Shown here piece after piece: positions 9,060 through 34,624 of a stretch of DNA of 64,000 nt. Under the pieces are notes generated by a model. It made no database searches. It saw nothing but the letters and a program-made list of their open reading frames with translations, and was not told where the DNA came from. The DNA comes from Xestospongia bergquistia (lineage: Eukaryota; Porifera; Demospongiae; Haplosclerida; Petrosiidae). The number at the start of each line of letters is the position of its first letter. Within the stretch, counting starts at the first letter, position 1. The stretch spans positions 15,491,349-15,555,348 of the forward strand of contig OZ014412.1 in NCBI GenBank assembly GCA_963965975.1. The letters run 5' to 3'. A program made the position numbers and the translations under genes.

Positions 9060-10539
9060 ACACCTATAATATTCTTTTGCACATTATGACATAAAGTTAT
9101 CCCTGAACTCTTTGAATATTTGGTGGCAAGTTGTGTGACATCTGTTGTCCTTATATGTATTCATGTTTTTTCAAGTATCTTTGAAAGTCTTCTCCAGAAG
9201 ACAATAATATTAATATTACTAAGAATACAATGATGTGCAGGATTTGCCTCGTGCAATAGACAGCTATTACATGTGAATATGATCTCTTAGTCTATCCAGA
9301 ATAAATGCTAACTAGCCATGATTCCATAGCCTTGGAAAAGTGTATACTGCAGCATTGACCAAAAACACCTTTTGTGAATGACCATATAAGGAAGTATGTA
9401 ATCATATTCATAGCTAGTTAACCATTTCATAATTTCTCTAAGTTTCCGAGTAAGGTCAGGAATTGACTACTATAGTTTGCCTAATGCTACAATAGCTTTT
9501 GAATGGTTTTGTACAGCCTCCTTCCTGGTTTGCGAGGCTATGGACTCCTACTTCAATATACATAGCTTCTATAACTTATTTTTTAATCTTACACTTTTAA
9601 ATTGACAAATCAGTTGTTATAGTGCCTTCTATCTGATCTACTACAAGTATCTTTAATGTTTGGTAGAATATGTCCAAAAAGTAAAATAAAAATTACTTAT
9701 TTTCTTTTACAATATGAATCATTGTATTTGAGCTTAACTAAATAAGGTGTGGTCATGTTTGTTCATTAAATTTTGTAGCCTATAACAGGAAAGAAAGACA
9801 GTAGACCACACGCTTAATTGTTTATTGTTATGGCAGTATTGATGTATGTAATTCACTGACTATAGTAGTAACTATTTTAACATGCCAAAATTCTTAGGAT
9901 TATACAACCTTTATTGCTCTTTCATTTAGTCAGAAAGCCTACTGTACATGTGTCACTGCAAATCACTTGAGAGAGAACATACAAAGATTTTGAGAAGGAA
10001 CAAACAAATCTGTTTATTCAACTAGACAACTTCTACAGCAGTTAAATAATTTGTTTGTAGCTGTAAATAATTATTTGTTTGCTAAAATGCTTCTGTACTA
10101 ACTGTATTTATTGCATAATTTTTTTGGGTGATGGTTAATATGATGTACATTAAAGTAGAGCTGGCTTTGTCTAAATAACAAGTATATTTAGTCCTCGTAC
10201 ATCAACTATACTTGTCTACAAGAAGTTAGAACCATCTCTATCCACAACAGTAAATGTTAATAGTAGACCAAGTTCTTGCACTTCTGTGAACTCTTACAAG
10301 TGCATCTTGTTCCAGTTACTATCTCTCTTTTTTACATCACATATTTACAAAATATACTTAGTTTGTACTATATTGGAAGTTGTCTTAAGAATGAACTTTT
10401 TTGAAGACATATCAGAATGCAAAAATCCCACTACATGAAAAAAAGGAAACTACCAATAATTAAAATGGTGTAAAACAACATAAAGTAATTGTGATGTTAT
10501 ACACTAGGCCTAATTGAGTTTGATGCCAATATTAGGCAT
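9060..10539. other. Intergenic, partly homologous to 21480-22288 and 33800-34624
   Basis: From about 9660 onward the sequence is a diverged copy of the DNA downstream of genes 2 and 3. I see no gene. No AATAAA signal for the gene at 10540-11766 is evident close to its stop codon. Confidence 0.5.
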
Positions 10540-11766
10540 TTAATAACCACGATAGTAACGGATCCAGCTTTGGAGGTGATTAAAAACTGAACGTGTGATA
10601 AGAGGTCCTCCATTAAAAAGTGTGGTAGTTCCTCTGTAGTAAGCATATGCGACAATACCATATATGATACGATTAGGACGACCGTAACGGAAGTAAGCAT
10701 AGGCACCACTACCACTTGTTCCACCAGCTATATCACAAGGGAATTTCATCATTCGTCCATAGTTGAAGAAACCAGATATTCTGCAGTTAGAGTGCCACAT
10801 ACACCTTCCTGGTTTGTCACCAGGATAACCATTTATATAAATGTAGTACCTTGGCATTGGGTAGCGCCATCCAAAGGCCATCCAGTTGTTATAATAAGCA
10901 TATGTGATTATTATTGCAACATCATAATGTTGATAACGGTAACGATACCATCCATAATAGGTGACAGCTCGGTGCCAGTTGTAGTAAATTCCATTGTTTG
11001 GGTTACAATTCTTTGCACGACGAAATTGTAGACGGCTGTACCATCCACTTGGACTGTTGTTACCTCTATGTACACAGTGACCAGCTGTGAGGATGGTCCT
11101 GCCACGAACGAATGTTCCGGTGCAGCCAATATCAATTCTACCCATTGTCCTCCATGGATAACGTATAAGATAATAATGAGATACTTTTACACGAGTATCA
11201 GGTGGAATAACTCCAATTGTTCGTTTCTTAATATTATGTGCTTCCTCAAGAACATCTTCTAGATCATCAGTGTCTCCAACACTCTCATTCTCACCAGGAT
11301 CTTCCTCACTAAAAACATCTTCCTCTTCAGTATTACCAGGAAGACTAGGACCTTCCTCTTCAGTGTTACCAGGACTACTACTAGGACCTTCAGAATCTAG
11401 AGTATCGGTATCTTCGTTAGTGCTAGGGTCTTCAGAAACAAAAGGATGAGGATGAGAAGGGTCATCACTTTTTAGAGGATGAGGATGAGAAGGGTCATCA
11501 CTTTTTTCTTCCGTTTGTACAGCCATCTTGTCCATCACTTCTTTTAAAGTTCCCATTGTTTCCCATCCATCGCTAGTAACTGACACCCATCGTTGAGCTT
11601 GGAAATCTTCAGCTGTGCCTTCTTTTGGGTTATTTTCATTGAATTTCACAATTTCATGGGTGATGTCTTTTATGTTGGAAAAGGTTATCTTTCGTCCTTT
11701 AGTTGCATCATCTGCATAAGCAGCTAGCATGCAAAAGCATGCAATGAAAAGGAGAGCACTTTGCAT
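10540..11766 (-). CDS. Secreted V8-like (S1B) serine protease, copy 1
   Basis: Single-exon gene of 408 residues. Residues 1-18 are a hydrophobic signal peptide. Residues 19-182 are an acidic pro-region with a duplicated SDDPSHPHP motif (residues 89-107) and two GNTEEE motifs. KKR at 180-182 is the likely activation site, leaving a 226-residue catalytic domain. The triad is visible: His230 in TAGHC, Asp282 in YDVAI and Ser351 in GGTSGSG. GYPGDKP at 313-319 followed by MW is a hallmark of Staphylococcus V8 / glutamyl endopeptidases (S1B, COG3591) rather than trypsins. Val372 sits where V8 has its S1-pocket His. The mature domain is very rich in Tyr (31) and Arg (25) and has no Glu. Expected role: extracellular or vesicular proteolysis; the substrate is unknown. 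The start is the first ATG, with a TATA box 71 bases upstream. Confidence 0.9.
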   Translation of the reverse strand: MQSALLFIACFCMLAAYADDATKGRKITFSNIKDITHEIVKFNENNPKEGTAEDFQAQRWVSVTSDGWETMGTLKEVMDKMAVQTEEKSDDPSHPHPLKSDDPSHPHPFVSEDPSTNEDTDTLDSEGPSSSPGNTEEEGPSLPGNTEEEDVFSEEDPGENESVGDTDDLEDVLEEAHNIKKRTIGVIPPDTRVKVSHYYLIRYPWRTMGRIDIGCTGTFVRGRTILTAGHCVHRGNNSPSGWYSRLQFRRAKNCNPNNGIYYNWHRAVTYYGWYRYRYQHYDVAIIITYAYYNNWMAFGWRYPMPRYYIYINGYPGDKPGRCMWHSNCRISGFFNYGRMMKFPCDIAGGTSGSGAYAYFRYGRPNRIIYGIVAYAYYRGTTTLFNGGPLITRSVFNHLQSWIRYYRGY

Positions 11767-11836
11767 TGTAAATCCACAAAAAGAGACTAAATCTGGTTTG
11801 CTGGATTTGTCTGCAGTAAAGCTGCAAATGCCTCAC

Positions 11837-11843
11837 TTTTATA
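11837..11843 (-). promoter_or_regulatory. TATA box of protease copy 1
   Basis: TATAAAA reads on the minus strand 71 bases upstream of the start codon. It is conserved at the same place in all four main-family copies, within an otherwise AT-rich leader that includes 'gctataaaagtgagg'. Confidence 0.65.
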
Positions 11844-12788
11844 GCATAAAGAAGTCATAGTAATGCATGTAACAAGTGCTTGCATTCAGGGCTATGGGCC
11901 ATAAGTTATTTTAATTTTACAAATGTTTATTCAAGATATGCTAGGAAGACACTCGTTGCATCCATATGTAAGCATATATGATAATCATAGCTTTCTTATC
12001 AATAAAAGTATTCAGAATAGAAAAATTAACATGAAAATTAAGCAGTCACTATAATATTGGACTCATAATAGTTTGACAAAGCTAACATGATATGTAGTTC
12101 AGGCTAATAAAATTTTATGATTTTCCCTTCATATTACAGCATCCATCAGGTGGTCCTAATATTATTTTGTACCACATGCTAACTATAAAGGTATGTTTGT
12201 TTTCATTGGGGGTTTCTATTGCTGAACTACAAGATAAGTGGGTGTGGTCAAAGATAGCAGACAAAGTGGCCCTAAGTTCAATTAGCCTCACTATTCACTA
12301 TCTACATAGCAATGTTTGTCTAAGTTTGTTATCAGTAAATCTGCATTTCTAAAATCAATAAATCTGTAATTCTGCAATACTTTTAATCTATATATAAAAA
12401 GGCCCTAAATTTTACGCTGGAATAGGAAAACTCAAATTAAAGCAGTCTGCAATGCATTCAGAAATGTAGATTGGCTACACTTTACAGCAGTTATTGTTTT
12501 CATGAAGTCTGTTGGATAACACATTGGTTGCTGCTTTATCTGTTTCCTGCAGATAGTGCTAGATCTCTAGCACCTTTAACAATATAATGTATGCCTATTT
12601 GTTGTTACCATATCACACAGTGTGATTGGCCATTTGTACATGTCATTGACCTTTACCATAAGCCTTCTAGGTTTGGTGTAATCTCTGTGACATACATTCA
12701 AGTACAACTGAAATTAGTATATGTTTTAAACTATACTTACTTCATGTTTTAGAGGGTGGACCTTATGAAGTTTCTTTTGAAGTAGTGA
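11844..12788. other. Conserved upstream region of protease copy 1, no gene seen
   Basis: The sequence is nearly identical to 23608-24552 and close to 35944-36886. No gene is supported; a 61-codon open frame at 12167-12352 is repeated in all copies but shows no family features. Regulatory elements for the protease probably lie here, but none beyond the TATA box can be named. Confidence 0.5.
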
Positions 12789-13164
12789 TGTTTTAGTTAG
12801 CTATAACTAAACCCCTTTTAGTTTAGCCTATTTGACTTTTAATTAACTAACTATAACTAATTATATCACTGTAAAAATTAATATTTTAACAATTGCTTTG
12901 TACAGTACATGGATGGATTACTATGGAATATAGAACTCTTGAGAATTGCTCACTATGTAATTTGTTGGTATGTTGTAGTGGTACATACCAACAAATTATA
13001 CAATGAGTAATTAACATAAATTCTACATTCCATAGTAATCCACCCATGTAATGTACAAAGCAATTATTAAAATGACATGTTAATTTTTACTGTGTATAAA
13101 ATTAATGCAATAATGACAAAAACTAACTATAATTAACTATTATAGTTAGTACTGAACTAAAACA
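12789..13164. mobile_element. 376-bp foldback (hairpin) element, unit B
   Basis: The interval is one long imperfect palindrome. Its ends are TGTTTTAGTT and AACTAAAACA, and the centre is 'ttggtatg-ttgtagtggta-cataccaa' with an 11-base loop. Internal words such as 'taactaactataa', 'caattgctttgtac' and 'ggattactatgga' return as reverse complements. There is no coding capacity. It looks like a non-autonomous foldback MITE of unassigned superfamily. Confidence 0.7.
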
Positions 13165-13240
13165 ATAGACTCCTGTACTCAATAAATACATGTCATAGCT
13201 GCACAAAAGATAAACCACTTGTAAGTGATAGGTTAGCTGT

Positions 13241-14340
13241 GACGCTGAAAAAAACATTTCGTCATTTTAACTGAGGTCTTTGTTACCACCGTTTATCATT
13301 ATGATGTAAACTAAATCTAAGTTGCTAGAAGGCCAAAATTAGTGTAACTCATAAAACCAACTAGTTGCATCTACAAACGTATTTCTTTTATACCCACTTT
13401 GCTATAGTAATTTAGTGTTCTATCTAGAATTTTTCTTTGGGGGGGGGGGGGGAGAAGTTGACTTCCAATGCACTTTTAGCTTTATTAAATAATATGTTGC
13501 GAATAACTAAAGAGAATAAATAATAATTATTAATTACAGGGCTATTTTTTATTTCTTGACTTTTATGCAATTTTCGATAATCAATTCCAGTGTTTCATCT
13601 GTTAAATGCTCAGCTCCTTCAAAATACATATTCTCATTGCATGCTCTAATGTTTCTTCTCTCATCCCACTTCTCAACCTTCTTTTTATTAATTTCATGCT
13701 ACTAAATCACTGTAATTTTTTTTTGGTGGGGGGAAGTTACTGAGTTTGGGGGGGAAGCTTCCCCCACAGTAGATAAAACCCAGCAATGAATCATGGACGC
13801 TGAAAAAAACATTTCGTCATTTTAACTGAGGTCTTTGTTACCACAGTTTATCATTATGATGTAAACTAAATCTAAGTTGCTACAAGGCCAAAATTAGTGT
13901 AACTCATAAAACCAACTAGTTGCATCTACAAACGTATTTCTTTTATACCCGCTTTGCTATAGTAATTTAGTGTTCTACCTAGAATTTTTCTTTGGGGGGG
14001 GGGGGGAGAAGTTGACTTCCAATGCACTTTTAGCTTTATTAAATAATATGTTGCGAATAACTAAAGAGAATAAATAATAATTATTAATTACAGGGCTATT
14101 TTTTATTTCTTGACTTTTATGCAATTTTCGATAATCAATTCCAGTGTTTCATCTGTTAAATGCTCAGCTCCTTCAAAATACATATTCTCATTGCATGCTC
14201 TAATGTTTCTTCTCTCATCCCACTTCTCAACCTTCTTTTTATTAATTTCATGCTACTAAATCACTGTAATTTTTTTTTGGTGGGGGGAAGTTACTGAGTT
14301 TGGGGGGGAAGCTTCCCCCACAGTAGATAAAACCCAGCAA
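13241..14340. repeat. ~555-bp satellite, two tandem copies (unit B)
   Basis: Copies start at 13241 and 13796, each beginning 'gacgctgaaaaaaacattt' and ending near 'aaacccagcaa'. Each contains a G-homopolymer and a pair 'tctatctagaattttt' / 'ttttatctactgtggg' suggestive of a degenerate terminal inverted repeat. The minus strand of the core encodes a short Glu/Lys-rich open stretch (NENMYFEGAEHL), so the unit may have grown from a dead hAT-like element. Confidence 0.75.
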
Positions 14341-15600
14341 TTGAATCATGGCTTCAATTTAAGCTATAAGCAGATACTATTTCAACTGAATTAACCTAGT
14401 TAGTTAAGTTGAAATAGTATCTCTCTCTCATTCATATAGTTTCAGTTATTGGACATAAACTACAGAGAGTACATTATGGCTTAATTTGGCTTTATACATA
14501 TTGAGTTAGACCACTTTTTGAGGTAACTCAATATTGGATTTACATCATATTGATGAAACTCTAGTAACAAAGACAATGGTTGAAATGACAAAAAGCTATT
14601 TTAAGTGGATAAGTTAACTGATAACTAAAGATAGCACTATTCAATACAACCACATTATTACATTTCACCTTGGCTATATAATAAGCTATCACAATGCAAA
14701 ATGCAACCATGTGCAGGCCATGAATCAATGAGCAAGTAAGAAGTCAAGAAGTTGAAACTACAGTTATGTCTGCTATGTCAACAGGAAGACCAAAAGCAAG
14801 CCCAGTTTGGAAATAATTTGACCATGATGAAATATCAAACAATAATGTTTACAAGATTGAGAACTCAGAAAAAGTTGAATGTGGGAAGAAAATAAAAGAG
14901 AGAACATCTTCCTCAGATGTTCTCTCTTTGGTCTTTCCATTCTCCCTGCACTCTCTTTTTCCTTTTAATATATACTTCATTGAAAATGATTACTTGACTT
15001 AACCAATATACAGCTATATAGCTTGAATGCATGTATAACAGGAAGTAAATGTCCATTGTTATTATTCCTAATGTATTACCATATTGACTAAACATTCCTA
15101 ATGTATTCTCAATCTCATAGTACATCAATAATTAAAACAGTATAAAGTTAATTTTCACTAAACCATCAATAATTTATTATCATGATCAAATCTTTATAGC
15201 CATGTAAAATTAATTAACCAGTCAATTTTTAAAGTGGTACTAACAATAGCAATTATAATAGCATCAAAAAATACTAGAAGGGAGTATTAAGACATTCCAA
15301 TTATTTAGATCTGTCACCTGTTTATAATATCAGTGGAGGGTGGAGCATGTAAATATTCAAAGTATGTAAGGTCTGGTTCATCAATGTCTTCCTGATAACA
15401 TTGTTTACATGAATAATGACACAGAGAGTCAGCATTTACTTGCTTCTGTCCTAGACAGTGTTTAACTTCAAACTCATATTCAGACAGTGTCTACATTCAT
15501 CAACTAAATGTGACAACGTGTCTCCTCTCAAATAAGCATCCTATTTTGGAGATCACGGTCCTTTGCATTATGGAAGTCAAGACCTTTTGACCAAAATTGT
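14341..15600. other. No functional gene; shared unit sequence
   Basis: The stretch is nearly identical to 26665-27925 and related to 37973-39190. It holds the BED-finger scrap at 14766-14913 and nothing else I can support. Confidence 0.5.
14766..14913 (+). mobile_element. BED-finger transposase scrap (unit B)
   Basis: Plus-strand reading gives MSAMSTGRPKASPVWK followed by a stop; the unit D copy (38398) reads WKYF at this point, a BED zinc-finger signature, then HDEISNNNV and ECGKKIK. The 3' end is a 14-base hairpin (AAAGAGAGAACATC ... GATGTTCTCTCTTT). It is a dead N-terminal fragment of an hAT-like transposase. Confidence 0.5.
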
Positions 15601-16045
15601 TTTCTCAGTGTACACAATGACCAGCTGTAAGAATGGTTGTCTTCAATAAAAGTAATAGTACACCTTGTACCAATTTGTACAAATTTTTACATTTACCAAT
15701 TACCTTATATGGTAATTACCATATGAGGTAATTGGTAAATGTATCAATTTGTAACCTTGAAACAACAGTCAGGAGTAAAAACCTTCCTATTATTATGTAA
15801 AGTATCTTTTAATTTAGTCAAGAGGTTGTTCTCACCAAACACATCATTACCATCAACAAAATCTTCAGAATCAATTAGATTATCAACAACACTTTCATCA
15901 ATAGTATCTTTGTCAACCTGCTGCTACCATAATAGACAAGACCAATCTCTTTTGCAGTTGTCTGCTCTGCTGACCAAGTGAATCTTTGCAATGAAACCAG
16001 TAACACTGATCATAAAGAAAGGAGCATTACATTTATAGTGATACA
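15600..16045 (-). pseudogene. Decayed second-subfamily protease relic (unit B)
   Basis: Read on the minus strand, 16040 to 15754 gives a weak signal-peptide-like start, an acidic stretch (DKDTIDESVVDNLIDSEDF) and NNRKVFTPD, which resembles the activation site KRRVFGPD of the broken gene at 40319-41120. A 76-base palindrome then interrupts it, after which 15608-15645 reads ILTAGHCVH, the catalytic-histidine motif. The rest of the catalytic domain is absent. Confidence 0.55.
15678..15753. repeat. 76-bp near-perfect palindrome
   Basis: The arms pair around 'ggtaattacc': the left arm contains 'tttaccaattacc' and the right arm 'ggtaattggtaaa'. It splits the protease relic between its activation site and histidine motif, so it is probably a tiny foldback insertion. 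Unit C has the same palindrome at 28004-28079. Confidence 0.65.
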
Positions 16046-16430
16046 GGGAATAATAATAGAACTGATACAACAAGACACATAGTCATGACACGACTTGATT
16101 GTTACGTAAGTAATATCAGAGCTTCACTGACATTTTGTTGGCCAAGCCTGAGTGAGCCAAACACTTGATGGTAGTTAAAATCTGTCTGTCTACTGTCTGT
16201 TTGTCCCCAGGAGGACATCCAAGGATGTGTGTGCATCATCACATATACTATATTTATGGTCTAAATCCCATACGATTATTATGACAACTAGCTGCAGATA
16301 CCAGTACTGCAGTAAACAATGAGAAGACTAAAGGAAAAGAAGCAGAAAGATTTTTAGAGAAAAGGAGGAAAGACTCACAACTTATAGACAGAGAAGAGTA
16401 AGCAGAGATAGTAGAAGGAAGACAAGAAAA

Positions 16431-16790
16431 GATTGTCAATGAGAGACAAAGTTAAGGGAGCAGAAGGTAGGGAAAAAGGTTTGTGAGAGACAGAGAAAGA
16501 CAAAGAGAACAAAGAGAAGCAGGAGCATTTGAAGGAAGACAAGAAAGGATTGTCAATGAGAGACAAAGTTAAGGAAGCAGAAGGTAGGGAAAAAGGCTTG
16601 TGAGAGACAGAGAAAGACAAAGAGAATAAAGAGAAGCAGAAGCATTTGAAGGAAGACAAGAAAGGATTGTCAATGAGAGACAAAGTTAAGGGAGCATAAG
16701 GTAGGGAAAAAGGTTTGTGAGAGACAGAGAAAGACAAAGAGAATAAAGAGAAGCAGGAGCATTTGAAGGAAGACAAGAAAGGCTTGCTAA
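16431..16790. repeat. 117-bp purine-rich minisatellite, three units (unit B)
   Basis: The word 'gattgtcaatgagagac' recurs at 16431, 16548 and 16665, exactly 117 bases apart. Because 117 is a multiple of three, the minus strand carries a long repetitive Ser/Leu/Phe frame (16375-16878). I treat that as a composition artefact, since neither frame has a recognisable domain. Confidence 0.75.
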
Positions 16791-17049
16791 CAAAAGACAA
16801 TGATGAAATAAACAAAGAGAAACAGAGAAAAAATTGAGACTTGCTAAAGACAGACAGAGACCAATAGAATGAATACAAGCAGACAGTATAGGTAAAAGAT
16901 AAGAAAGGCTAGTGAGACAAAGACAGAGACCTACCAATGAATGTATTAAAGAGAGACATACATGGAGTGCGATATGATAAAATAGTGATAATGGCTTCAT
17001 GAAAACTAGCAGCATTTCAAACAACTCTAAACTTTTCATTCAGACATGG

Positions 17050-20000
17050 AGTCATTGTATTTTGTAACTTGAATCTTTTCCATCTATTACATTGGTACTA
17101 TATACTATGGAATATTGTTAATGTTTACATGATTTAATGATCCTACAATTTCCCTGTTTATATATGAAGTTAAACTAACTTAAAAAGTTATAACTATCAA
17201 GTATCATGTGATGTAGGTGTGACTAGCCATTTGAAAACAGTAATGGGTCTATGGAAAAGAGCTTTACATAAAGACAAAAAAAAACAGATAAGGTAACCTG
17301 TAGTCATGTATATTAGAGTCTATATATAATGCTTTAATATGAGGTTTTTGGTAAGTAAAGTATCATTGTCCTTAAGTTGTCTAAATACTATACATAGTGG
17401 CTCAATCATCTACTAGATGCTAATTTAGACATTGCCATTATACAAGTAATAGAGATCAAAAGATCAAACATATAACTTGAGCAGTAACATTTCCTTAATT
17501 TATAATTTAATTTTGTTTTAGTAATTATTATTAAATAAAAGTAATGATAAATGAATTTGTCACAACACTGTGTCGAGTCATTGCCTATTGAAGTCACTAA
17601 ACTGCCCTATTTATATACCAGTGATATGATAAACTTTTGACTGCCCTTCTTATTTAAAAATACTATTAGCATAATAGTTACATTTACACAACTAGTTGTC
17701 TAGATATGATCACAGTTTTGCTTAGGTAAGGGTATTTCAATGATCCTTATATAATAGACTTTATTATGCCTCAAATAACATTTTTAAAGCCATGTTTGTA
17801 TCTTTCTTCCTTAATGATTAGTTATAGTAGTCTCGTTCCCAGACATCCATTCACTAATGATTAGCAAGTGGACGTCTTGGGATAAGACTATAGCTACAGG
17901 TTTAATTGAGTTTAGTTGAAATTTTAATCTGATGACATCATTGTCCTGTATATGACCTTTTTACTAACTACCAAATTCCTGTTGTTATAATATTAAAATT
18001 ACTTAGCAAAAAATGACCTTTGCACAATTAAAGAAACTTGAAAGTTACTTTGTGTTGTATAAAATAACATAAGAAGTAATAGTTTATACATATTGTTATA
18101 TCAAGTAGGAATCATAGACATGTTTGCCTCTATATTTTTATGGCTCTCTCATAGACAACTTAAGTCTACAAGTTTATGACTATTATTAAAAACTAATAGA
18201 TTTAAATATAGGAGTCTATTCATTTACTTCACTACATAAAATATCATTAAATGACCATATAAAATGATTTTATTGAAGTTGAATCACTTAGGGTACATTG
18301 CCACAGGAACTAGAAGTACATGTCAACATATTGTGGTTTTACATTATACTTGTCATTTGCCATATTATATTAGTGCAGTATCAATTTGGTAAGTCTCTGG
18401 TTTGGTTGGAAATAAACATGTGTTAAGTCAACATACTATCAATTTAGGAAACCTAATATTTCAATGACCTAGTCTTATCATCTCCCCATAGTACAAGGAT
18501 GACTCTAAAATGAATTTAGTGATAAACCTTAATATCTATTGTAGGCTTTCTACTAAAAAAACATCTCTCCCACATGTTATGACTAATAGAACTTACTATA
18601 ATTTGTTTAACATAGCCAATGTACACCTGTTGTAGTATTTAAACCCATTTATTGGAAATAACTGAACTTTAGTTATGAAGCTCACTGTTGCCCTTCATTT
18701 TGCTATTACACTGCCATTACATGTGCTACAGGAATTACCCAGATATAAACATGTGCTGTGTTTATAATATAAACAACATGTAGTTGATTTTTCAAACATT
18801 ATAATATTGGCACTATATAGCCAACTTACTTAAGTCTTTATTAGCGTAAGAAAAGGCCACATTTCCAATTTTTAGTGGAACAACCTAAGGCTCTATTTTT
18901 TTAAAAAACTATCAGAACCTAATTTCAATGAGATATTTTTCAAACCCTAACTTTACAGCTCTGATTAAATATCTATGTGTGTAATAATTTACATGTAACA
19001 CTGCCTTATTTTAATATTTATTAACATAAACAAAAGAACATATCTTGGCTCTGAGAGATACAATGAGCCAGAACCTTAATTTCTCCATGTTAATTAATTG
19101 TAATGTAATGGACTATTTTCCTGGTTTGCGAATTACTTGGAAGATCTGTTTGTGAATTCATACTATTAGAAGTTACTCATTGCCATAATTGCACTACTAG
19201 GACTATTCCTTCGAAGTTATGATAACAGTAGTATTAAATTTTTATCTACATTTCGTTCTATTTTATAATGCCAACGATATAAATGAATATTCACATGCAA
19301 TGAGTTATGTTATGTTTCACTAACTACACTACTTTCTACTACTAAAAGTGTTAATCTCGTTGAGGATATATTTATCAGACACTTGTAAGATAAAGATATT
19401 AACTTACCTCAATATGTACATGCAATAAGTCTCAGTGAATTGTTAAGTGACACTGGTTTACTATAGCCATTTGTGATTGTAGTTCTAACAATTAATTGAT
19501 TTAAAGTATGATTTGTGGTAGACTAAATATAGGTAAGCTTGTCAGATTATAAAATATAATATCTAAAATGAGAAAATAGTATACTATAAACAAAACAAAT
19601 GCTAATTGTACAGGCACTCATATTATGGTTGACATGTGTTACAAAATATCTATGCATAGTGATATACTTTGAGTACAAGGCAATGAACTAAAGTAGGTAT
19701 ATTATACTGTTAAGTTAATATATAGCATAGTTTATTAGAGTAAGTATTATAGAATAGAACTAATGCCTAAACATAATATATAACTTAGTTTCTTCCATGA
19801 TAACTATTTTGTTCAATTTTATATAATCATCATGTTACATTTACTATGTTACTAGTAATGTTTATATTCTGAGAATCCACATGTGTTCCTTCATATGTTA
19901 ATTTGTGTCTGTATGTACTCTGTTATACATTAGAGGTAATGTAACATGAAACTCTATAGCTTAATCACTATGTATAAAGTAATTACTGATAATTGTCTTT

Positions 20001-22288
20001 ACAATTTGTGAAGTCATATTAGTCACTATACATTCCTTTGTAAGAGTTTAGTTGGTACACTAAAGATACACTGAACTAATATAACTAGGGCTACCTTTAT
20101 CTTATATTATATTACACTTATAAAAATGTCCAGGTGTTATACTTAAAAATGGATTGTGTCATTTTCAACTGAGGCCTTGGTTACCATGGTTATATACTAA
20201 AGATACACTGAACTCAATACTGAATTATATAAACTTTATACTGAATTACTACAAAGTCAAAACTATAGTCTAACTATATATGTATAAAGCTACCTTTAAC
20301 TCTTAGTTGGTTTAATACATATTGAGATATAATACTATAGGTTTGGCTTTTTGATATCTCTATTATGGACACCAATGCTTCAATTGCAATGACACAACAC
20401 TTTTTTAAGTGTATAGCTACAAGGTACAATGTATATTTACCTATGTTCTTATGTACATGTAGGAAGTATGGTATTTACTCTCTCATTAAAACCTTGTAAC
20501 TGATAGATACTTGGTATATTGTGATTATTTGATATACTGTTGAAAGTGGATATGGTATACTCATGTATTAGTTGTGTTGCTATGGCATTTGCCATAAGAC
20601 GTTATGCATAGTTGTTTATTGATGGTAATGATATCATAGATTTAAAACATTCTGATTTGTTAGCCAAAAAGTAGTTTAATTCCCAAAGAATTGGACTAAA
20701 CCCACCAGATGACTTTTAATTTAAGTTAGTGGGTGTTGGCATAAGCCATTAGAATCTAAATAGAGTTATCCACAACATTAATTATTTCCTACTACATGTG
20801 GCACTAGAATCCCCTAAACATCACTAACAATTATTTCAGTGTAACCACCAAAACAAGTTAGGCTTCTTTCCCTAATACAATTGTGGTTACTTGACTATAC
20901 ATGTACAAATTACCTTTATAATATTTGGCTTACTACCTTTAATGAACATTTACACATAATAATTAGACCTTACCATACATTAGCATGTGTTGTATTTGGT
21001 CAATACATAATCGTTTGAGTCATCAAAGAGTGCATTTGCTATTATAAGGTCTACCTTTAAATACATTGTTATAATGGATACGACCTGACATTGAATACCA
21101 CATATGCTGTTAATAGTTTAATGTATTTTGTATCCATGCATCCATGAGTTGGTTAAAACAATATCTTTTCCTAATCAATAACTTTGAGAATTAAGAGTCT
21201 TCTCTAATATTATCAAATATGTCATATGTCAGCTTATGTGTGTTGCTAACAATGTTCATATTAGTAAAGCTTCCAAGTCTTGCTATTGTGCGGTTTGCCT
21301 CTCTTTGTCAGTTTTAAAGTGAGAGTTACACTTCCTCATTGAAGTTACTAAAATCCTCTAAATGTAGTCATTGACTGTTGTTATACTTATTACACAGTGA
21401 CCAGCTGTAATGATAGTCTTTTTACAAATGAAGGTTCCCGTGCAACCAATATTGATTTGTTCCACTGTCTTCCAAACAATCAAATTACTTATTTTTCTTT
21501 ATAATAATGAAACATTGTATTATAGCTTAACTAAATAAGGTGTTGTCGTGTTTGTTCATTAAAGTTTGTAAATTTAACAGGAAAGAAAGACAATAGACCA
21601 CACACTTAATGGTTTATATGTTATGGCAGTACTGATGTATCTAATTGACTGACTATAGTAGTAATTATTTTGACATGACCAATATTCTTAGGATTATACA
21701 ACCTTTATTACTCTTTCATTTACTTAGAAAGCCTACTGTAAATGTGTCACTGCAAATCACTTGAGAGAGAACATACAAAGATTTTGAGAAAGAACAAACA
21801 AATCCGTTTATTCAACTTCTACAGCTTTAAACAATTACTTGTTTGCTAAATAACTCTGTACTAACTGTTTTTATTGATACCTTTTTTATTGATAGTTAAT
21901 ATGATGAACATTGAAGTAGAGTTGGGTTTGTCAGTATACGTAGTCCTCACAAGTAACTATACTTGCCTACAAGAAGTTAGAACCATCTCTGTCTGCAACA
22001 GTAGATGTTAATAGTAGACCAAGTTCTTGCACTTGTGTGAACCTTTACAAGTGCATCTTGTTCCAGTTACTATCTCTCTTTTTTACATCACATATTTACA
22101 AAATATACTTAGTTTGTACTATATTGGAAGTTGTCTTAAGAATGAACTTTTTTGAAAACATATCAGAATGCAAAAATTCCACTACATGAAAAAAAGGAAA
22201 CTACCAATAATAAAAATGGTGTAAAACAACATTGTAATTGTGATGTTATACACTAGGCCTAATTGAGTTCAATGCCAATATTAGGCAT
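17050..22288. repeat. Intergenic part of unit B, duplicated in unit C
   Basis: No gene is seen. The stretch is collinear and close to identical with 29376-34624, differing by scattered substitutions (for example around 17398-17440 versus 29722-29765). It carries one protease crumb at 21393-21477. Confidence 0.6.
21393..21477 (-). pseudogene. Protease crumb with histidine motif (unit B)
   Basis: Minus-strand reading gives INIGCTGTFICKKTIITAGHC, equivalent to IDIGCTGTF...TILTAGHC in the intact genes, here about 85 bases long with nothing recognisable around it. Confidence 0.6.
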
Positions 22289-23530
22289 TTAATAACCACG
22301 ATAGTAACGGATCCAGCTTTGGAGGTGATTAAAAACTGAACGTGTGATAAGAGGTCCTCCATTAAAAAGTGTGGTAGTTCCTCTGTAGTAAGCATATGCG
22401 ACAATACCATATATGATACGTTTAGTACGACCGTAACGGAAGTAAGCATAGGCACCAGCACCACTTGTTCCACCAGCTATATCGCATGGGAATCTCATCA
22501 TTCGTCCACCGTTGAAGAAACCAGATATTCGGCAGTTAGAGTGCCACATACACCTTCGTGGTTTGTCACCAGGATAACCATTTATATAAATGTAGTACCT
22601 TGGCATTGGGTAGCGCCATCCAAAGGCCATCCAGTTGTTATAATAAGTATATGTGATTATTATTGCAACATCATAATGTTGATAACGGTAACGATACCAT
22701 CCATAATAGGTGACAGCTCGATGCCAGTTGTAGTAAACTCCTCTGTTTGGGTCACAATTCTTTTGACGACGAAATTGTAGACGGCTGTACCATCCACTTG
22801 GACTGTTATTACCTCTATGTACACAGTGACCAGCTGTCAGGATGGTCCTGCCACGAACGAATGTTCCGGTGCAGCCAATATCAATTCTACCCATTGTCCT
22901 CCAAGGATAACTTCTAAGATAAGAATATGGTACTCTTACACGAGTATCAGGTGGAATAACTCCAATTGTTCGTTTCTTAATATTATGTGCTTCCTCAAGA
23001 ACATCTTCTAGATCATCAGTGTTGTCATTCTCATCAGGATCTTCCTCGCTAAAAACATCTTCCTCTTTGGTATTACTTGGACCTTCCTCTTCAGTATTAC
23101 CAGGAAGACTAGGACCTTCCTCTTCAGTATTACCAGGAAGACTAGGACCTTCCTCTTCAGTGTTACCAGGACTAATACTAGGACCTTCAGAATCTAGAGT
23201 ATCTGTATCTTCGTTAGTGCTAGGGTCTTCAGAAACAAGAGGATGAGGATGAGAAGGGTCATCACTTTTTTCTTCCGTTTGTACAGCCATCTTGTCCATC
23301 ACTTCTTTTAAAGTTCCCATTGTTTCCCATCCATCGCTAGTAACTGACACCCATCGTTGAGCTTGGAAATCTTCAGCTGTGCCTTCTTTTGGGTTATTTT
23401 CATTGAATTTCACAATTTCATGGGTGATGTCTTTTATTTTGGAAAAGGTTATCTTTCGTCCTTTAGTTGCATCATCTGCATAAACAGCTAGCATGCAAAA
23501 GCATGCAATGAAAAGGAGAGCACTTTGCAT
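22289..23530 (-). CDS. Secreted V8-like (S1B) serine protease, copy 2
   Basis: Single-exon gene of 413 residues, same architecture as copy 1. Signal peptide 1-18, acidic pro-region to KKR at 185-187, catalytic domain 188-413. The triad is His235, Asp287 (YDVAI) and Ser356 (GGTSGAG). The pro-region has one SDDPSHPHP and three GNTEEE repeats plus an NTKEE variant, where copy 1 has two of each; this accounts for the different length. Mature-domain differences from copy 1 include RVRVPYSYL, RQKNCDPNRG and GRTKRI. There is no Glu after the KKR site. A TATA box lies at the conserved distance upstream. The gene sits in a unit almost identical to unit B, so recent duplication or gene conversion is likely. 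Confidence 0.9.
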   Translation of the reverse strand: MQSALLFIACFCMLAVYADDATKGRKITFSKIKDITHEIVKFNENNPKEGTAEDFQAQRWVSVTSDGWETMGTLKEVMDKMAVQTEEKSDDPSHPHPLVSEDPSTNEDTDTLDSEGPSISPGNTEEEGPSLPGNTEEEGPSLPGNTEEEGPSNTKEEDVFSEEDPDENDNTDDLEDVLEEAHNIKKRTIGVIPPDTRVRVPYSYLRSYPWRTMGRIDIGCTGTFVRGRTILTAGHCVHRGNNSPSGWYSRLQFRRQKNCDPNRGVYYNWHRAVTYYGWYRYRYQHYDVAIIITYTYYNNWMAFGWRYPMPRYYIYINGYPGDKPRRCMWHSNCRISGFFNGGRMMRFPCDIAGGTSGAGAYAYFRYGRTKRIIYGIVAYAYYRGTTTLFNGGPLITRSVFNHLQSWIRYYRGY

Positions 23531-23600
23531 TGTAAATCCACAAAAAGAGACTAAATCTGGTTTGCTGGATTTGTCTGCAGTAAAGCTGCAAATGCCTCAC

Positions 23601-23607
23601 TTTTATA
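23601..23607 (-). promoter_or_regulatory. TATA box of protease copy 2
   Basis: TATAAAA on the minus strand, 71 bases upstream of the start codon, identical in context to copy 1. Confidence 0.65.
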
Positions 23608-24552
23608 GCATAAAGAAGTCATAGTAATGCATGTAACAAGTGCTTGCATTCAGGGCTATGGGCCATAAGTTATTTTAATTTTACAAATGTTTATTCAAGA
23701 TATGCTAGGAAGACACTCGTTGCATCCATATGTAAGCATATATGATAATCATAGCTTTCTTATCAATAAAAGTATTCAGAATAGAAAAATTAACATGAAA
23801 ATTAAGCAGTCACTATAATATTGGACTCATAATAGTTTGACAAAGCTAACATGATATGTAGTTCAGGCTAATAAAATTTTATGATTTTCCCTTCATATTA
23901 CAGCATCCATCAGGTGGTCCTAATATTATTTTGTACCACATGCTAACTATAAAGGTATGTTTGTTTTCATTGGGGGTTTCTATTGCTGAACTACAAGATA
24001 AGTGGGTGTGGTCAAGGATAGCAGACAAAGTGGCCCTAAGTTCAATTAGCCTCACTATTCACTATCTACATAGCAATGTTTGTCTAAGTTTGTTATCAGT
24101 AAATCTGCATTTCTAAAATCAATAAATCTGTAATTCTGCAATACTTTTAATCTATATATAAAAAGGCCCTAAATTTTACGCTGGAATAGGAAAACTCAAA
24201 TTAAAGCAGTCTGCAATGCATTCAGAAATGTAGATTGGCTACACTTTACAGCAGTTATTGTTTTCATGAAGTCTGTTGGATAACACATTGGTTGCTGCTT
24301 TATCTGTTTCCTGCAGATAGTGCTAGATCTCTAGCACCTTTAACAATATAATGTATGCCTATTTGTTGTTACCATATCACACAGTGTGATTGGCCATTTG
24401 TACATGTCATTGACCTTTACCATAAGCCTTCTAAGTTTGGTGTAATCTCTGTGACATACATTCAAGTACAACTGAAATTAGTATATGTTTTAAACTATAC
24501 TTACTTCATGTTTTAGAGGGTGGACCTTATGAAGTTTCTTTTGAAGTAGTGA

Positions 24553-24928
24553 TGTTTTAGTTAGCTATAACTAAACCCCTTTTAGTTTAGCCTATTTGAC
24601 TTTTAATTAACTAACTATAACTAATTATATCACTGTAAAAATTAATATTTTAACAATTGCTTTGTACAGTACATGGATGGATTACTATGGAATATAGAAC
24701 TCTTGAGAATTGCTCACTATGTAATTTGTTGGTATGTTGTAGTGGTACATACCAACAAATTATACAATGAGTAATTAACATAAATTCTACATTCCATAGT
24801 AATCCACCCATGTAATGTACAAAGCAATTATTAAAATGACATGTTAATTTTTACTGTGTATAAAATTAATGCAATAATGACAAAAACTAACTATAATTAA
24901 CTATTATAGTTAGTACTGAACTAAAACA
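24553..24928. mobile_element. 376-bp foldback element, unit C
   Basis: Same palindrome as at 12789-13164, offset by 11764 bases and essentially identical, so it was copied with the unit rather than inserted again. Confidence 0.7.
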
Positions 24929-25004
24929 ATAGACTCCTGTACTCAATAAATACATGTCATAGCTGCACAAAAGATAAACCACTTGTAAGTGATAGGTTAG
25001 CTGT

Positions 25005-26664
25005 GACGCTGAAAAAAACATTTCGTCATTTTAACTGAGGTCTTTGTTACCACCGTTTATCATTATGATGTAAACTAAATCCATGTTGCTAGAAGGCCAA
25101 AATTAGTGTAACTCATAAAACCAACTAGTTGCATCTACAAACGTATTTCTTTTATACCCGCTTTGCTATAGTAATTTAGTGTTCTACCTAGAATTTTTCT
25201 TTGGGGGGGGGGGGGAGAAGTTGACTTCCAATGCACTTTTAGCTTTATTAAATAATATGTTGCGAATAACTAAAGAGAATAAATAATAATTATTAATTAC
25301 AGGGCTATTTTTTATTTCTTGACTTTTTTGCAATTTTCGATAATCAATTCCAGTGTTTCATCTGTTAAATGCTCAGCTCCTTCAAAATACATATTCTCAT
25401 TGCATGCTCTAATGTTTCTTCTCTCATCCCACTTCTCAACCTTCTTTTTATTAATTTCATGCTACTAAATCACTGTAATTTTTTTTTGGTGGGGGGAAGT
25501 TACTGAGTTTGGGGGGGGAAGCTTCCCCCACAGTAGATAAAACCCAGCAATGAATCATGGACGCTGAAAAAAACATTTCGTCATTTTAACTGAGGTCTTT
25601 GTTACCACAGTTTATCATTATGATGTAAACTAAATCTAAGTTGCTACAAGGCCAAAATTAGTGTAACTCATAAAACCAACTAGTTGCATCTACAAACGTA
25701 TTTCTTTTATACCCGCTTTGCTATAGTAATTTAGTGTTCTACCTAGAATTTTTCTTTGGGGGGGGGGGGGGGGAGAAGTTGACTTCCAATGCACTTTTAG
25801 CTTTATTAAATAATATGTTGCGAATAACTAAAGAGAATAAATAATAATTATTAATTACAGGGCTATTTTTTATTTCTTGACTTTTTTGCAATTTTCGATA
25901 ATCAATTCCAGTGTTTCATCTGTTAAATGCTCAGCTCCTTCAAAATACATATTCTCATTGCATGCTCTAATGTTTCTTCTCTCATCCCACTTCTCAACCT
26001 TCTTTTTATTAATTTCATGCTACTAAATCACTGTAATTTTTTTTTGGTGGGGGGAAGTTACTGAGTTTGGGGGGGAAGCTTCCCCCACAGTAGATAAAAC
26101 CCAGCAATGAATCATGGACGCTGAAAAAAACATTTCGTCATTTTAACTGAGGTCTTTGTTACCACAGTTTATCATTATGATGTAAACTAAATCTAAGTTG
26201 CTACAAGGCCAAAATTAGTGTAACTCATAAAACCAACTAGTTGCATCTACAAACGTATTTCTTTTATACCCGTTTTGCTATAGTAATTTAGTGTTCTACC
26301 TAGAATTTTTCTTTGGGGGGGGGGGGGGGGGAGAAGTTGACTTCCAATGCACTTTTAGCTTTATTAAATAATATGTTGCGAATAACTAAAGAGAATAAAT
26401 AATAATTATTAATTACAGGGCTATTTTTTATTTCTTGACTTTTTGCAATTTTCGATAATCAATTCCAGTGTTTCATCTGTTAAATGCTCAGCTCCTTCAA
26501 AATACATATTCTCATTGCATGCTCTAATGTTTCTTCTCTCATCCCACTTCTCAACCTTCTTTTTATTAATTTCATGCTACTAAATCACTGTAATTTTTTT
26601 TTGGTGGGGGGAAGTTACTGAGTTTGGGGGGGAAGCTTCCCCCACAGTAGATAAAACCCAGCAA
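25005..26664. repeat. ~555-bp satellite, three tandem copies (unit C)
   Basis: Copies start at 25005, 25560 and 26117. They differ mainly in G-run length and in 'gactttttt' versus 'gacttttatg' in the core. The third copy explains most of the length difference between units B and C. Confidence 0.75.
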
Positions 26665-27091
26665 TTGAATCATGGCTTCAATTTAAGCTATAAGCAGATA
26701 CTATTTCAACTGAATTAACCTAGTTAGTTAAGTTGAAATAGTACATCTCTCTCATTCATATAGTTTCAGTTATATTGGACATAAACTACAGAGAGTACAT
26801 TATGGCTTAATTTGGCTTTATACATATTGAGTTAGACCACTTTTTGAGGTAACTCAATATTGGATTTACATCATATTGATGAAACTCTAGTAACAAAGAC
26901 AATGGTTGAAATGACAAAAAGCTATTTTAAGTGGATAAGTTAACTGATAACTAAAGATAGCACTATTCAATACAACCACATTATTACATTTCACCTTGGC
27001 TATATAATAAGCTATCACAATGCAAAATGCAACCATGTGCAGGCCATGAATCAATGAGCAAGTAAGAAGTCAAGAAGTTGAAACTACAGTT

Positions 27092-27239
27092 ATGTCTGCT
27101 ATGTCAACAGGAAGACCAAAAGCAAGCCCAGTTTGGAAATAATTTGACCATGATGAAATATCAAACAATAATGTTTACAAGATTGAGAACTCAGAAAAAG
27201 TTGAATGTGGGAAGAAAATAAAAGAGAGAACATCTTCCT
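27092..27239 (+). mobile_element. BED-finger transposase scrap (unit C)
   Basis: Copy of 14766-14913 with the same stop after WK, carried along by the segmental duplication. Confidence 0.5.
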
Positions 27240-27925
27240 CAGATGTTCTCTCTTTGGTCTTTCCATTCTCCCTGCACTCTCTTTTTCCTTTTAATATATA
27301 CTTCATTGAAAATGATTACTTGACTTAACCAATATACAGCTATATAGCTTGAATGCATGTATAACAGGAAGTAAATGTCCATTGTTATTATTCCTAATGT
27401 ATTACCATATTGACTAAACATTCCTAATGTATTCTCAATCTCATAGTACATCAATAATTAAAACAGTATAAAGTTAATTTTCACTAAACCATCAATAATT
27501 TATTATCATGATCAAATCTTTATAGCCATGTAAAATTAATTAACCAGTCAATTTTTAAAGTGGTACTAACAATAGCAATTATAATAGCATCAAAAAATAC
27601 TAGAAGGGAGTATTAAGACATTCCAATTATTTAGATCTGTCACCTGTTTATAATATCAGTGGAGGGTGGAGCATGTAAATATTCAAAGTATGTAAGGTCT
27701 GGTTCATCAATGTCTTCCTGATAACATTGTTTACATGAATAATGACACAGAGAGTCAGCATTTACTTGCTTCTGTCCTAGACAGTGTTTAACTTCAAACT
27801 CATATTCAGACAGTGTCTACATTCATCAACTAAATGTGACAACGTGTCTCCTCTCAAATAAGCATCCTATTTTGGAGATCACGGTCCTTTGCATTATGGA
27901 AGTCAAGACCTTTTGACCAAAATTG

Positions 27926-28371
27926 TTTTCTCAGTGTACACAATGACCAGCTGTAAGAATGGTTGTCTTCAATAAAAGTAATAGTACACCTTGTACCAAT
28001 TTGTACAAATTTTTACATTTACCAATTACCTTATATGGTAATTACCATATGAGGTAATTGGTAAATGTATCAATTTGTAACCTTGAAACAACAGTCAGGA
28101 GTAAAAACCTTCCTATTATTATGTAAAGTATCTTTTAATTTAGTCAAGAGGTTGTTCTCACCAAACACATCATTACCATCAACAAAATCTTCAGAATCAA
28201 TTAGATTATCAACAACACTTTCATCAATAGTATCTTTGTCAACCTGCTGCTACCATAATAGACAAGACCAATCTCTTTTGCAGTTGTCTGCTCTGCTGAC
28301 CAAGTGAATCTTTGCAATGAAACCAGTAACACTGATCATAAAGAAAGGAGCATTACATTTATAGTGATACA
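27926..28371 (-). pseudogene. Decayed second-subfamily protease relic (unit C)
   Basis: Copy of the 15600-16045 relic, with the acidic stretch, the RKVFTPD site, the palindrome at 28004-28079 and the TAGHCVH motif. Confidence 0.55.
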
Positions 28372-28756
28372 GGGAATAATAATAGAACTGATACAACAAG
28401 ACACATAGTCATGACACGACTTGATTGTTACGTAAGTAATATCAGAGCTTCACTGACATTTTGTTGGCCAAGCCTGAGTGAGCCAAACACTTGATGGTAG
28501 TTAAAATCTGTCTGTCTACTGTCTGTTTGTCCCCAGGAGGACATCCAAGGATGTGTGTGCATCATCACATATACTATATTTATGGTCTAAATCCCATACG
28601 ATTATTATGACAACTAGCTGCAGATACCAGTACTGCAGTAAACAATGAGAAGACTAAAGGAAAAGAAGCAGAAAGATTTTTAGAGAAAAGGAGGAAAGAC
28701 TCACAACTTATAGACAGAGAAGAGTAAGCAGAGATAGTAGAAGGAAGACAAGAAAA

Positions 28757-29116
28757 GATTGTCAATGAGAGACAAAGTTAAGGGAGCAGAAGGTAGGGAA
28801 AAAGGTTTGTGAGAGACAGAGAAAGACAAAGAGAACAAAGAGAAGCAGGAGCATTTGAAGGAAGACAAGAAAGGATTGTCAATGAGAGACAAAGTTAAGG
28901 AAGCAGAAGGTAGGGAAAAAGGCTTGTGAGAGACAGAGAAAGACAAAGAGAATAAAGAGAAGCAGAAGCATTTGAAGGAAGACAAGAAAGGATTGTCAAT
29001 GAGAGACAAAGTTAAGGGAGCATAAGGTAGGGAAAAAGGTTTGTGAGAGACAGAGAAAGACAAAGAGAATAAAGAGAAGCAGGAGCATTTGAAGGAAGAC
29101 AAGAAAGGCTTGCTAA
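28757..29116. repeat. 117-bp purine-rich minisatellite, three units (unit C)
   Basis: Same three-unit array as 16431-16790; the repeat number has not changed between the units. Confidence 0.75.
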
Positions 29117-29375
29117 CAAAAGACAATGATGAAATAAACAAAGAGAAACAGAGAAAAAATTGAGACTTGCTAAAGACAGACAGAGACCAATAGAATGAAT
29201 ACAAGCAGACAGTATAGGTAAAAGATAAGAAAGGCTAGTGAGACAAAGACAGAGACCTACCAATGAATGTATTAAAGAGAGACATACATGGAGTGCGATA
29301 TGATAAAATAGTGATAATGGCTTCATGAAAACTAGCAGCATTTCAAACAACTCTAAACTTTTCATTCAGACATGG

Positions 29376-32300: not shown

Positions 32301-34624
32301 TATAAAGTAATTACTGATAATTGTCTTTACAATTTGTGAAGTCATATTAGTCACTATACATTCCTTTGTAAGAGTTTAGTTGGTACACTAAAGATACACT
32401 GAACTAATATAACTAGGGCTACCTTTATCTTATATTATATTACACTTATAAAAATGTCCAGGTGTTATACTTAAAAATGGATTGTGTCATTTTCAACTGA
32501 GGCCTTGGTTACCATGGTTATATACTAAAGATACACTGAACTCAATACTGAATTATATAAACTTTATACTGAATTACTACAAAGTCAAAACTATAGTCTA
32601 ACTATATATGTATAAAGCTACCTTTAACTCTTAGTTGGTTTAATACATATTGAGATATAATACTATAGGTTTGGCTTTTTGATATCTCTATTATGGACAC
32701 CAATGCTTCAATTGCAATGACACAACACTTTTTTAAGTGTATAGCTACAAGGTACAATGTATATTTACCTATGTTCTTATGTACATGTAGGAAGTATGGT
32801 ATTTACTCTCTCATTAAAACCTTGTAACTGATAGATACTTGGTATATTGTGATTATTTGATATACTGTTGAAAGTGGATATGGTATACTCATGTATTAGT
32901 TGTGTTGCTATGGCATTTGCCATAAGACGTTATGCATAGTTGTTTATTGATGGTAATGATATCATAGATTTAAAACATTCTGATTTGTTAGCCAAAAAGT
33001 AGTTTAATTCCCAAAGAATTGGACTAAACCCACCAGATGACTTTTAATTTAAGTTAGTGGGTGTTGGCATAAGCCATTAGAATCTAAATAGAGTTATCCA
33101 CAACATTAATTATTTCCTACTACATGTGGCACTAGAATCCCCTAAACATCACTAACAATTATTTCAGTGTAACCACCAAAACAAGTTAGGCTTCTTTCCC
33201 TAATACAATTGTGGTTACTTGACTATACATGTACAAATTACCTTTATAATATTTGGCTTACTACCTTTAATGAACATTTACACATAATAATTAGACCTTA
33301 CCATACATTAGCATGTGTTGTATTTGGTCAATACATAATCGTTTGAGTCATCAAAGAGTGCATTTGCTATTATAAGGTCTACCTTTAAATACATTGTTAT
33401 AATGGATACGACCTGACATTGAATACCACATATGCTGTTAATAGTTTAATGTATTTTGTATCCATGCATCCATGAGTTGGTTAAAACAATATCTTTTCCT
33501 AATCAATAACTTTGAGAATTAAGAGTCTTCTCTAATATTATCAAATATGTCATATGTCAGCTTATGTGTGTTGCTAACAATGTTCATATTAGTAAAGCTT
33601 CCAAGTCTTGCTATTGTGCGGTTTGCCTCTCTTTGTCAGTTTTAAAGTGAGAGTTACACTTCCTCATTGAAGTTACTAAAATCCTCTAAATGTAGTCATT
33701 GACTGTTGTTATACTTATTACACAGTGACCAGCTGTAATGATAGTCTTTTTACAAATGAAGGTTCCCGTGCAACCAATATTGATTTGTTCCACTGTCTTC
33801 CAAACAATCAAATTACTTATTTTTCTTTATAATAATGAAACATTGTATTATAGCTTAACTAAATAAGGTGTTGTCGTGTTTGTTCATTAAAGTTTGTAAA
33901 TTTAACAGGAAAGAAAGACAATAGACCACACACTTAATGGTTTATATGTTATGGCAGTACTGATGTATCTAATTGACTGACTATAGTAGTAATTATTTTG
34001 ACATGACCAATATTCTTAGGATTATACAACCTTTATTACTCTTTCATTTACTTAGAAAGCCTACTGTAAATGTGTCACTGCAAATCACTTGAGAGAGAAC
34101 ATACAAAGATTTTGAGAAAGAACAAACAAATCCATTTATTCAACCAGACAACTTCTACAGCTTTAAACAATTATTTGTTTGCTAAATAACTCTGTACTAA
34201 CTGTTTTTATTGATACCTTTTTTATTGATAGTTAATATGATGAACATTGAAGTAGAGTTGGGTTTGTCAGTATACGTAGTCCTCACAAGTAACTATACTT
34301 GCCTACAAGAAGTTAGAACCATCTCTGTCTGCAACAGTAGATGTTAATAGTAGACCAAGTTCTTGCACTTGTGTGAACCCTTACAAGTGCATCTTGTTCC
34401 AGTTACTATCTCTCTTTTTTACATCACATATTTACAAAATATACTTAGTATGTACTATATTGGAAGTTGTCTTAAGAATGAACTTTTTTGAAAACATATC
34501 AGAATGCAAAAATTCCACTACATGAAAAAAAGGAAACTACCAATAATAAAAATGGTGTAAAACAACATTGTAATTGTGATGTTATACACTAGGCCTAATT
34601 GAGTTCAATGCCAATATTAGACAT
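29376..34624. repeat. Intergenic part of unit C, no gene seen
   Basis: Collinear with 17050-22288. The only protease-derived piece is the histidine-motif crumb at 33721-33805. Confidence 0.6.
33721..33805 (-). pseudogene. Protease crumb with histidine motif (unit C)
   Basis: Copy of 21393-21477, reading GCTGTFICKKTIITAGHC on the minus strand. Confidence 0.6.

Follow-up and report, generated by a model that had tools for sequence, protein, structure and literature searches.

Bacterial glutamyl endopeptidases of the V8/Bacillus intermedius type, which we take to be the family labelled S1B, are the described enzymes with which the genes reported here are best compared. One review terms His213 and Ser/Thr190 mandatory in V8-like glutamyl endopeptidases and states that in V8-type enzymes residue 1 contributes its amino group to the pocket; it adds that position 216 is not decisive, that residue 190 is of little weight in some viral enzymes and that Gln-specific viral enzymes likewise carry His213 (PMC5508998). 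According to the same review, other proteases as a rule activate V8-type enzymes, and the Streptomyces griseus enzyme, a protein more distant from those described here, loses its self-processing at Glu through His213→Val and through other changes (PMC5508998). The three intact genes of the present locus, c1–c3, are predicted to encode secreted chymotrypsin-fold proteases akin to the bacterial enzymes, with which they share the fold, the catalytic triad, a PGDK motif, a secreted pre-pro architecture and, as judged from the relatives sampled, a Glu-poor mature part.

The precursor of eosinophil major basic protein, with its anionic pro-segment and cationic mature part, is a parallel of another kind; our literature search on acidic propeptides of that protein found nothing. 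In α-defensins, too, an anionic pro-segment is joined to a cationic mature domain, and studies reportedly suggest that the pro-segment holds the cationic part inactive (PMC3308943). The mature part of c1–c3 differs from a defensin in being a 226-residue protease fold. Masking or inhibition of it by the pro-segment would be putative.

All three genes lie in the window, by which we mean the whole 64-kb stretch of DNA that was analysed, and each is a single open frame with the TATA-like sequence CTATAAAAG upstream. Copy 1 (c1; 10540–11766 on the minus strand, to which all protease genes, parts and fragments given below belong) is complete and encodes 408 aa. Its signal peptide (residues 1–18; 11713–11766), assigned by eye from the sequence, would be cut after AYA, and is followed by a pro-segment (residues 19–182; 11221–11712) with 24 Glu, 20 Asp and a net charge of −30. 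Part of the Glu-rich linker in this segment is coded by 33-bp repeats (11319–11391 in c1), identified from sequence repeats and alignment, which number 2.1 units in c1 and 3.4 in both c2 and c3. The presumed processing site, KKR180–182 (11221–11229), precedes the predicted chymotrypsin-fold mature domain (residues 183–408, 226 aa; 10543–11220), in which a direct count gives no Glu, 5 Asp, 4 Lys, 25 Arg, 31 Tyr and 8 Trp. Copies 2 (c2; 22289–23530) and 3 (c3; 34625–35866) each encode 413 aa, with 28 Glu in the pro-segment and none in the mature domain (22292–22969 and 34628–35305, respectively). The net charges (K + R − D − E) of pro-segment and mature part are −30/+24 in c1, −32/+26 in c2 and −33/+26 in c3, and the calculated pI values for c1 are 4.19 and 9.99. 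A first-pass annotation of this DNA had counted 24 Glu in c1 before KKR182 and none in the next 226 residues, which proved exact on recount, as did its 31 Tyr, about 25 Arg and 5 Asp for the mature domain; its further statements, that c2 and c3 are Glu-free after KKR and that a basic, aromatic domain is paired with a strongly acidic pro-segment, are borne out by the counts and charges above.

Copy 1 scores above the cut-off for the Pfam Trypsin family (23.2 bits, cut-off 20.6) and slightly below that for Trypsin_2 (27.1 bits, cut-off 27.6), and an NCBIfam search with c1 and c2 gave no family assignment. Glutamyl endopeptidases rank first for c1 in a sequence search of the PDB, 1p3c being the best, and this Bacillus intermedius glutamyl endopeptidase is also the best solved fold match (TM-score 0.83, target length) of a structure model of c1 built from a 58-sequence alignment of c1–c3 and 55 of the 80 relatives described below. 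In ten-residue blocks from residue 191 onward the pLDDT of the model is 76–97; linker residues 106–187 fall below 50 and are unstructured in the model. Relatives were obtained by a scan of prokaryotic genomes in which 132 stretches yielded 83 confirmed loci, the best 80 of the 83 being used; the scan motifs exclude the pocket, and a locus was confirmed by how closely it resembles c1. The triad letters His57-Asp102-Ser195 are intact in c1–c3 and identical to those in all of the best 80 of 83 relatives, corresponding in c1 to His230 (11077–11079), Asp282 (10921–10923) and Ser351 (10714–10716).

Closest among the best 80 of 83, at 40–44% identity over the mature part, are five loci (L001–L005) from Hoeflea, Phyllobacteriaceae, Sulfitobacter and two Gammaproteobacteria bins. 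A quick tree of 83 rows, namely c1–c3 and 80 relatives, all of the latter prokaryotic, groups c1–c3 with these five (the inner forks have SH-aLRT 93 and 80, and the wider 13-row set holding c1–c3 has 99), nested among bacterial relatives of 1p3c; the c1–c3 branch is long (1.45), and the program flagged an odd letter make-up in c1–c3 and, elsewhere in the tree, long branches. Judged from such sequence relationships, acquisition of the c1–c3 type from bacteria by transfer is possible. A search of viral contigs found no relative of c1–c3, and a literature search found no eukaryotic glutamyl endopeptidase, which does not imply its absence from print. The classes of L001 and L004 were sampled further (385 and 369 genomes), and matches at E ≤ 0.001 turned up in 25 and 10 genomes, respectively; the starting genomes aside, no match had an E-value better than 1e-16 or a full-length identity above 35%, so that close members seem rare in these classes. 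These samples yielded 41 loci, and of the 12 in which the pocket was read, 10 contain His213; two of the 10 (L161 and L163) appear to be relatives already sampled (L021 and L043) that were found again. The remaining two of the 12 (L134 and L157, perhaps one gene read twice) are bacterial loci with Ile213 and Val190, and bacterial relatives without His213 therefore exist; a hydrophobic pair at 213/190 is common to these loci and c1–c3, from which they differ in having 6 Glu.

In the predicted specificity pocket c1–c3 are unlike the bacterial enzymes. By alignment they carry Val213, Ile190 and Ala216, whereas among the best 80 of 83 relatives position 213 is His in all 80, position 190 is Thr in 78 and Ser in two, and position 216 is Gly in 77, with Ala, Ser and Tyr once each. 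The residues concerned in c1 are Val372 (position 213; 10651–10653), Ile346 (position 190; 10729–10731) and Ala375 (position 216; 10642–10644), and the pairing of Val372 with His213 recurs in the HMMER alignment of c1 to 1p3c. Neither of the two residues by which a glutamyl endopeptidase is recognized, His213 and Ser/Thr190, is thus present in the aligned columns of c1–c3. The aligned letters show that the predicted pocket differs from that of the Glu-cutting relatives; the substitutions do not tell its ligand, and the combination of Ile190, Val213 and Ala216 suggests a more hydrophobic pocket. The junction differs as well: between KKR and the aligned V-I-x-x-D, c1–c3 have TIG, so that in the alignment the usual N-terminal residue is preceded by two more residues than in the bacterial enzymes and by three more than in the broken gene c5 (described below). 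In enzymes of the V8 type, where position 216 is Gly, the free α-amino group at residue 1 serves to compensate charge. By itself, a KKR junction would not set c1–c3 apart from the family, given that V8-type enzymes normally depend on other proteases for their activation. In activation site and in the motif around the catalytic Ser, c1–c3 may also resemble the vertebrate proteins PRSS23 and PRSS35. The latter has Thr in place of the catalytic Ser (PMC3579851), unlike c1–c3, which keep the Ser.

The first-pass annotation had proposed that the lack of Glu protects an enzyme that cuts after Glu from self-digestion and directs it to its own propeptide, and had suggested a comparison with bacterial mature enzymes, in which the absence of Glu turns out not to be special to c1–c3. 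Among the best 80 of 83 relatives, mature Glu averages 1.47% and Asp 4.9%, and nine of the 80 have no Glu at all; the five closest have 2, 1, 1, 0 and 0. The relatives' pro-segments hold 8.6% Glu (best 80 of 83, some start codons being uncertain). If Glu were as frequent as in 28 trypsin-like PF00089 controls (3.2%), finding none in 226 residues would have a probability of about 7e-4; with the frequency of the 80 relatives the probability is 0.035, and with that of the five closest, whose 1060 residues include 4 Glu, it is 0.43. The absence is therefore unusual among proteases generally and ordinary in the c1–c3 branch. A count of the codons that a single step separates from Glu (30 of 226) was uninformative.

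The controls were PF00089 domains of 28 genomes that also hold relatives, of which 50 were read (30 loci as returned and 20 hand-picked by rank and wide coverage): 28 are trypsin-like with 3.2% Glu and 22 are HtrA-like or other with 3.3% Glu, Asp being 6.0% in each. Compared with the 28 trypsin-like controls, the relatives have lower Glu (p 4e-7) and, less markedly, lower Asp (p 0.005), the rows in this and the following test being mutually related, so that the p-values are too small and the effect size is what matters. Since most controls are actinobacterial, a comparison matched to Actinobacteria was chosen, actinobacterial HtrA-like domains being excluded; here mature Glu is 0.83% in 18 relatives and 3.17% in 25 PF00089 trypsin-like controls (p 1.2e-6), while Asp (5.4 against 6.1%, p 0.14) and Lys + Arg (7.2 against 7.8%, p 0.60) are similar. 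Within the relatives themselves, Glu makes up a smaller fraction of the acidic residues after the junction than before it, mature part against pro-segment, in 60 of the 72 rows that have enough such residues and in 43 of 46 clusters; divided by junction letter, the same holds for 46 of 47 rows with Glu and for three of 13 with Lys. Glu occupies the aligned position before the expected mature N-terminus in 50 of the best 80 of 83 relatives, the junction letters being taken by alignment column and misplaced in poorly aligned starts (e.g. L010, L024, L061 and L062). As a predictor of a Glu-poor mature part, junction Glu was rejected, having p 0.004 over the 80 rows, 0.026, 0.088 and 0.32 over 46, 35 and 23 clusters, respectively, and no effect in independent contrasts.

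Avoidance of Glu in this family of glutamyl endopeptidase relatives is supported by these sequence comparisons, and self-cleavage is a fair reading of its cause. It is not obligatory, because four relatives combine His213 with 10–20 mature Glu (L050, 14; L062, 13; L079, 10; L156, 20). Nine trypsin-type controls have 8.1% Lys + Arg, without avoidance. The idea of self-digestion avoidance thus stands for the relatives with an intact pocket, which are Glu-poor against controls and often have Glu at the junction; it fails for c1–c3, with their replaced pocket residues and KKR, and as an explanation of these genes themselves it is not supported.

In other residues c1–c3 do depart from the bacterial enzymes, with a host that is probably eukaryotic and with Arg and Tyr counts beyond those of all 80 relatives: in the region compared they have 24–28 Arg against 2–23 and 28–30 Tyr against 6–21 (best 80 of 83), and their mature net charge exceeds that of 79 of the best 80 of 83. 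With 5–6 Asp they are at the low end of the family's 5–18 (best 80 of 83); taken with the Arg and Tyr counts, this suggests that positive charge was gained and that more than Glu avoidance is involved. At 37 of the 56 Tyr/Arg sites of c1, none of L001–L005 has a matching residue. These five are like c1–c3 in having 0–2 Glu and, in four of them, an acidic pro-segment (−21 to −28) with a basic mature part (+14 to +33), L004 being −3/+4; they are unlike c1–c3 in their intact Glu-pocket letters and Glu-Ser-Val junction. The pairing of acidic pro-segment and basic mature part may therefore be partly inherited. A search for common ancestry of the pro-segments themselves was negative: a profile search of the c1 pro-segment against those of L001–L005 had shuffles only, not c1–c3, among the matches listed, and a similarity around VTxDG in a MAFFT alignment was rejected as not significant, c1 not scoring above shuffles.

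The first-pass annotation had offered, as an alternative, that the acidic pro-segment neutralises a basic domain. This fits c1–c3 better, in view of their low Asp and of opposite, near-balancing charges that persist although the number of acidic repeats differs between copies. Across the relatives, the charges of mature part and pro-segment are anti-correlated (rho −0.44 over 46 clusters, and also in raw rows), but this compensation vanishes in independent contrasts (r about 0), which makes charge balancing a weak argument as a selected trait.

Positions 13241–25140 and 25560–37473, holding c2 and c3, are tandem repeats with 99.2% identity over 11.9 kb, positions 9690–14351 and 21482–26117 are 94.9% identical, and the segmental tandem duplication spans 9690–37473. 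Between copies, mature-part dN/dS is 0.88, 0.74 and 1.71, from small numbers of changes (29, 29 and 6); residues 1–97 show 2, 0 and 2 changes, none of them synonymous, against 1 to 9 synonymous changes in the mature part. This suggests either exchange between c1–c3 or fast change in the mature part; gene conversion in the 5′ part is possible, and the high mature dN/dS makes relaxed constraint possible.

Two broken genes were recognized from translated matching pieces. One, c4 (41819–42903), is of the c1–c3 type: its pieces have Ile190, Val213 and Ala216, and those matched to the mature domain are free of Glu. The part matching residues 205–245, including the catalytic His, is absent, and the reading frame changes beside the catalytic Ser. 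The other, c5 (40337–41104), is a diverged relative whose uninterrupted 3′ piece reads CDT...GISGS...GVHAYGY, giving Thr190, Ser195, His213 and Gly216. Its junction, KEKRR/VFGPDSR, is without the three-residue insert of c1–c3, and the pieces that align in register contain at least two Glu (CTETF and LESWI), which may have arisen after its decay. Smaller remains comprise fragments of a diverged copy with one Glu each at 33704–33802 and 21376–21474, about 0.8 kb downstream of c3 and c2, respectively, and, at 39177–39278, a stop-containing translated match to the region of the catalytic His motif. Remains of a more diverged relative thus lie about 0.7–0.8 kb downstream of c2, c3 and c4, not of c1, as if the ancestral unit had been a pair. 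The letters of c5 suggest a local ancestor with a Glu pocket and, already, a basic junction; c5 being broken, its pocket speaks for ancestry by inference only.

That the host is probably eukaryotic is judged from the eight open frames of at least 150 aa in the 64 kb and from two domain matches, to a hAT transposase and to Ctf4_C. A near-perfect inverted repeat at 48143–49565 (99.7% over 625 bp) is a mobile element; the arm that was scanned contains a hAT dimerisation domain, with a hAT transposase match slightly above the cut-off, and the other arm has the same open frame. The open frame at 54605–55153 has a weak match, below the cut-off, to Ctf4_C, the C-terminal domain of Ctf4 (E 0.013), and is possibly an exon of what we assume to be a WDHD1-like gene.

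On balance, it seems probable that c1–c3 are descendants of Glu-cutters that were duplicated, lost Glu recognition, became basic and rich in Tyr and Arg, have a charge-balancing acidic linker and are matured at KKR. On this account, read from sequence, the ancestor would have been Glu-poor because of its own cutting after Glu, and after duplication the c1–c3 line would have dropped Glu recognition. The mature chain would then have evolved towards its very basic, Tyr/Arg-rich state, and a furin-, convertase- or trypsin-like enzyme would cut at KKR. Until that cut the acidic linker would offset the charge of the basic domain within the same molecule, so that the domain stays soluble and off membranes, nucleic acids or polyanions.

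That c1–c3 still cut after Glu, with a Glu-free mature chain and a Glu-packed propeptide as their own substrate, we regard as unlikely: the Glu-poor mature parts, Glu-rich pro-segments and junction Glu of the pocket-intact relatives are in its favour, whereas the pocket and KKR of c1–c3, the fact that Asp is low too, the many Glu of His213 relatives such as L050 and L156 and the lack of Lys/Arg avoidance in trypsin-type controls all speak against it. Loss of acidic residues might instead be a by-product of a positive surface selected for polyanions, membranes or mucus, with the pro-segment as a prodefensin-like mask and the Glu-poor ancestry incidental. The extreme Arg, Tyr, Asp and charge values, and the 37 Tyr/Arg sites of c1 not shared with the five closest relatives, favour this view, which we hold to be possible if doubtful, as four of those five already have the charge pairing, which may be inherited. 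Chance and composition, by which a Tyr/Arg-rich, low-acid protein merely happens to be without Glu, would be in keeping with the probability calculated from the Glu frequency of L001–L005; such an account is improbable, and leaves the relatives' Glu deficit against the controls unexplained. Finally, in what would be a two-enzyme system derived from a single gene of bacterial type, a c5-like sister with its Glu pocket retained might cut after Glu, shaving the Glu-packed pro-segment of c1–c3 and being unable to cut their Glu-free mature domain. We think this very unlikely; the sister copies in the window being broken, an intact one would need to lie elsewhere in the genome, and if the system were real the Glu-free state would protect against the partner, not against self.

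Under the reading that we prefer, descent from Glu-cutters with loss of Glu recognition, a protease family known chiefly from its bacterial members would appear to have changed its specificity at this locus. Intact genes lacking the Glu-pocket letters stand next to a relict that retains them, and the switch is therefore testable at three named positions, 213, 190 and 216. For the family at large the comparisons suggest a rule that can be checked, namely that, within Actinobacteria, relatives of these enzymes have about one-quarter of the Glu of other trypsin-fold domains, Asp being similar.
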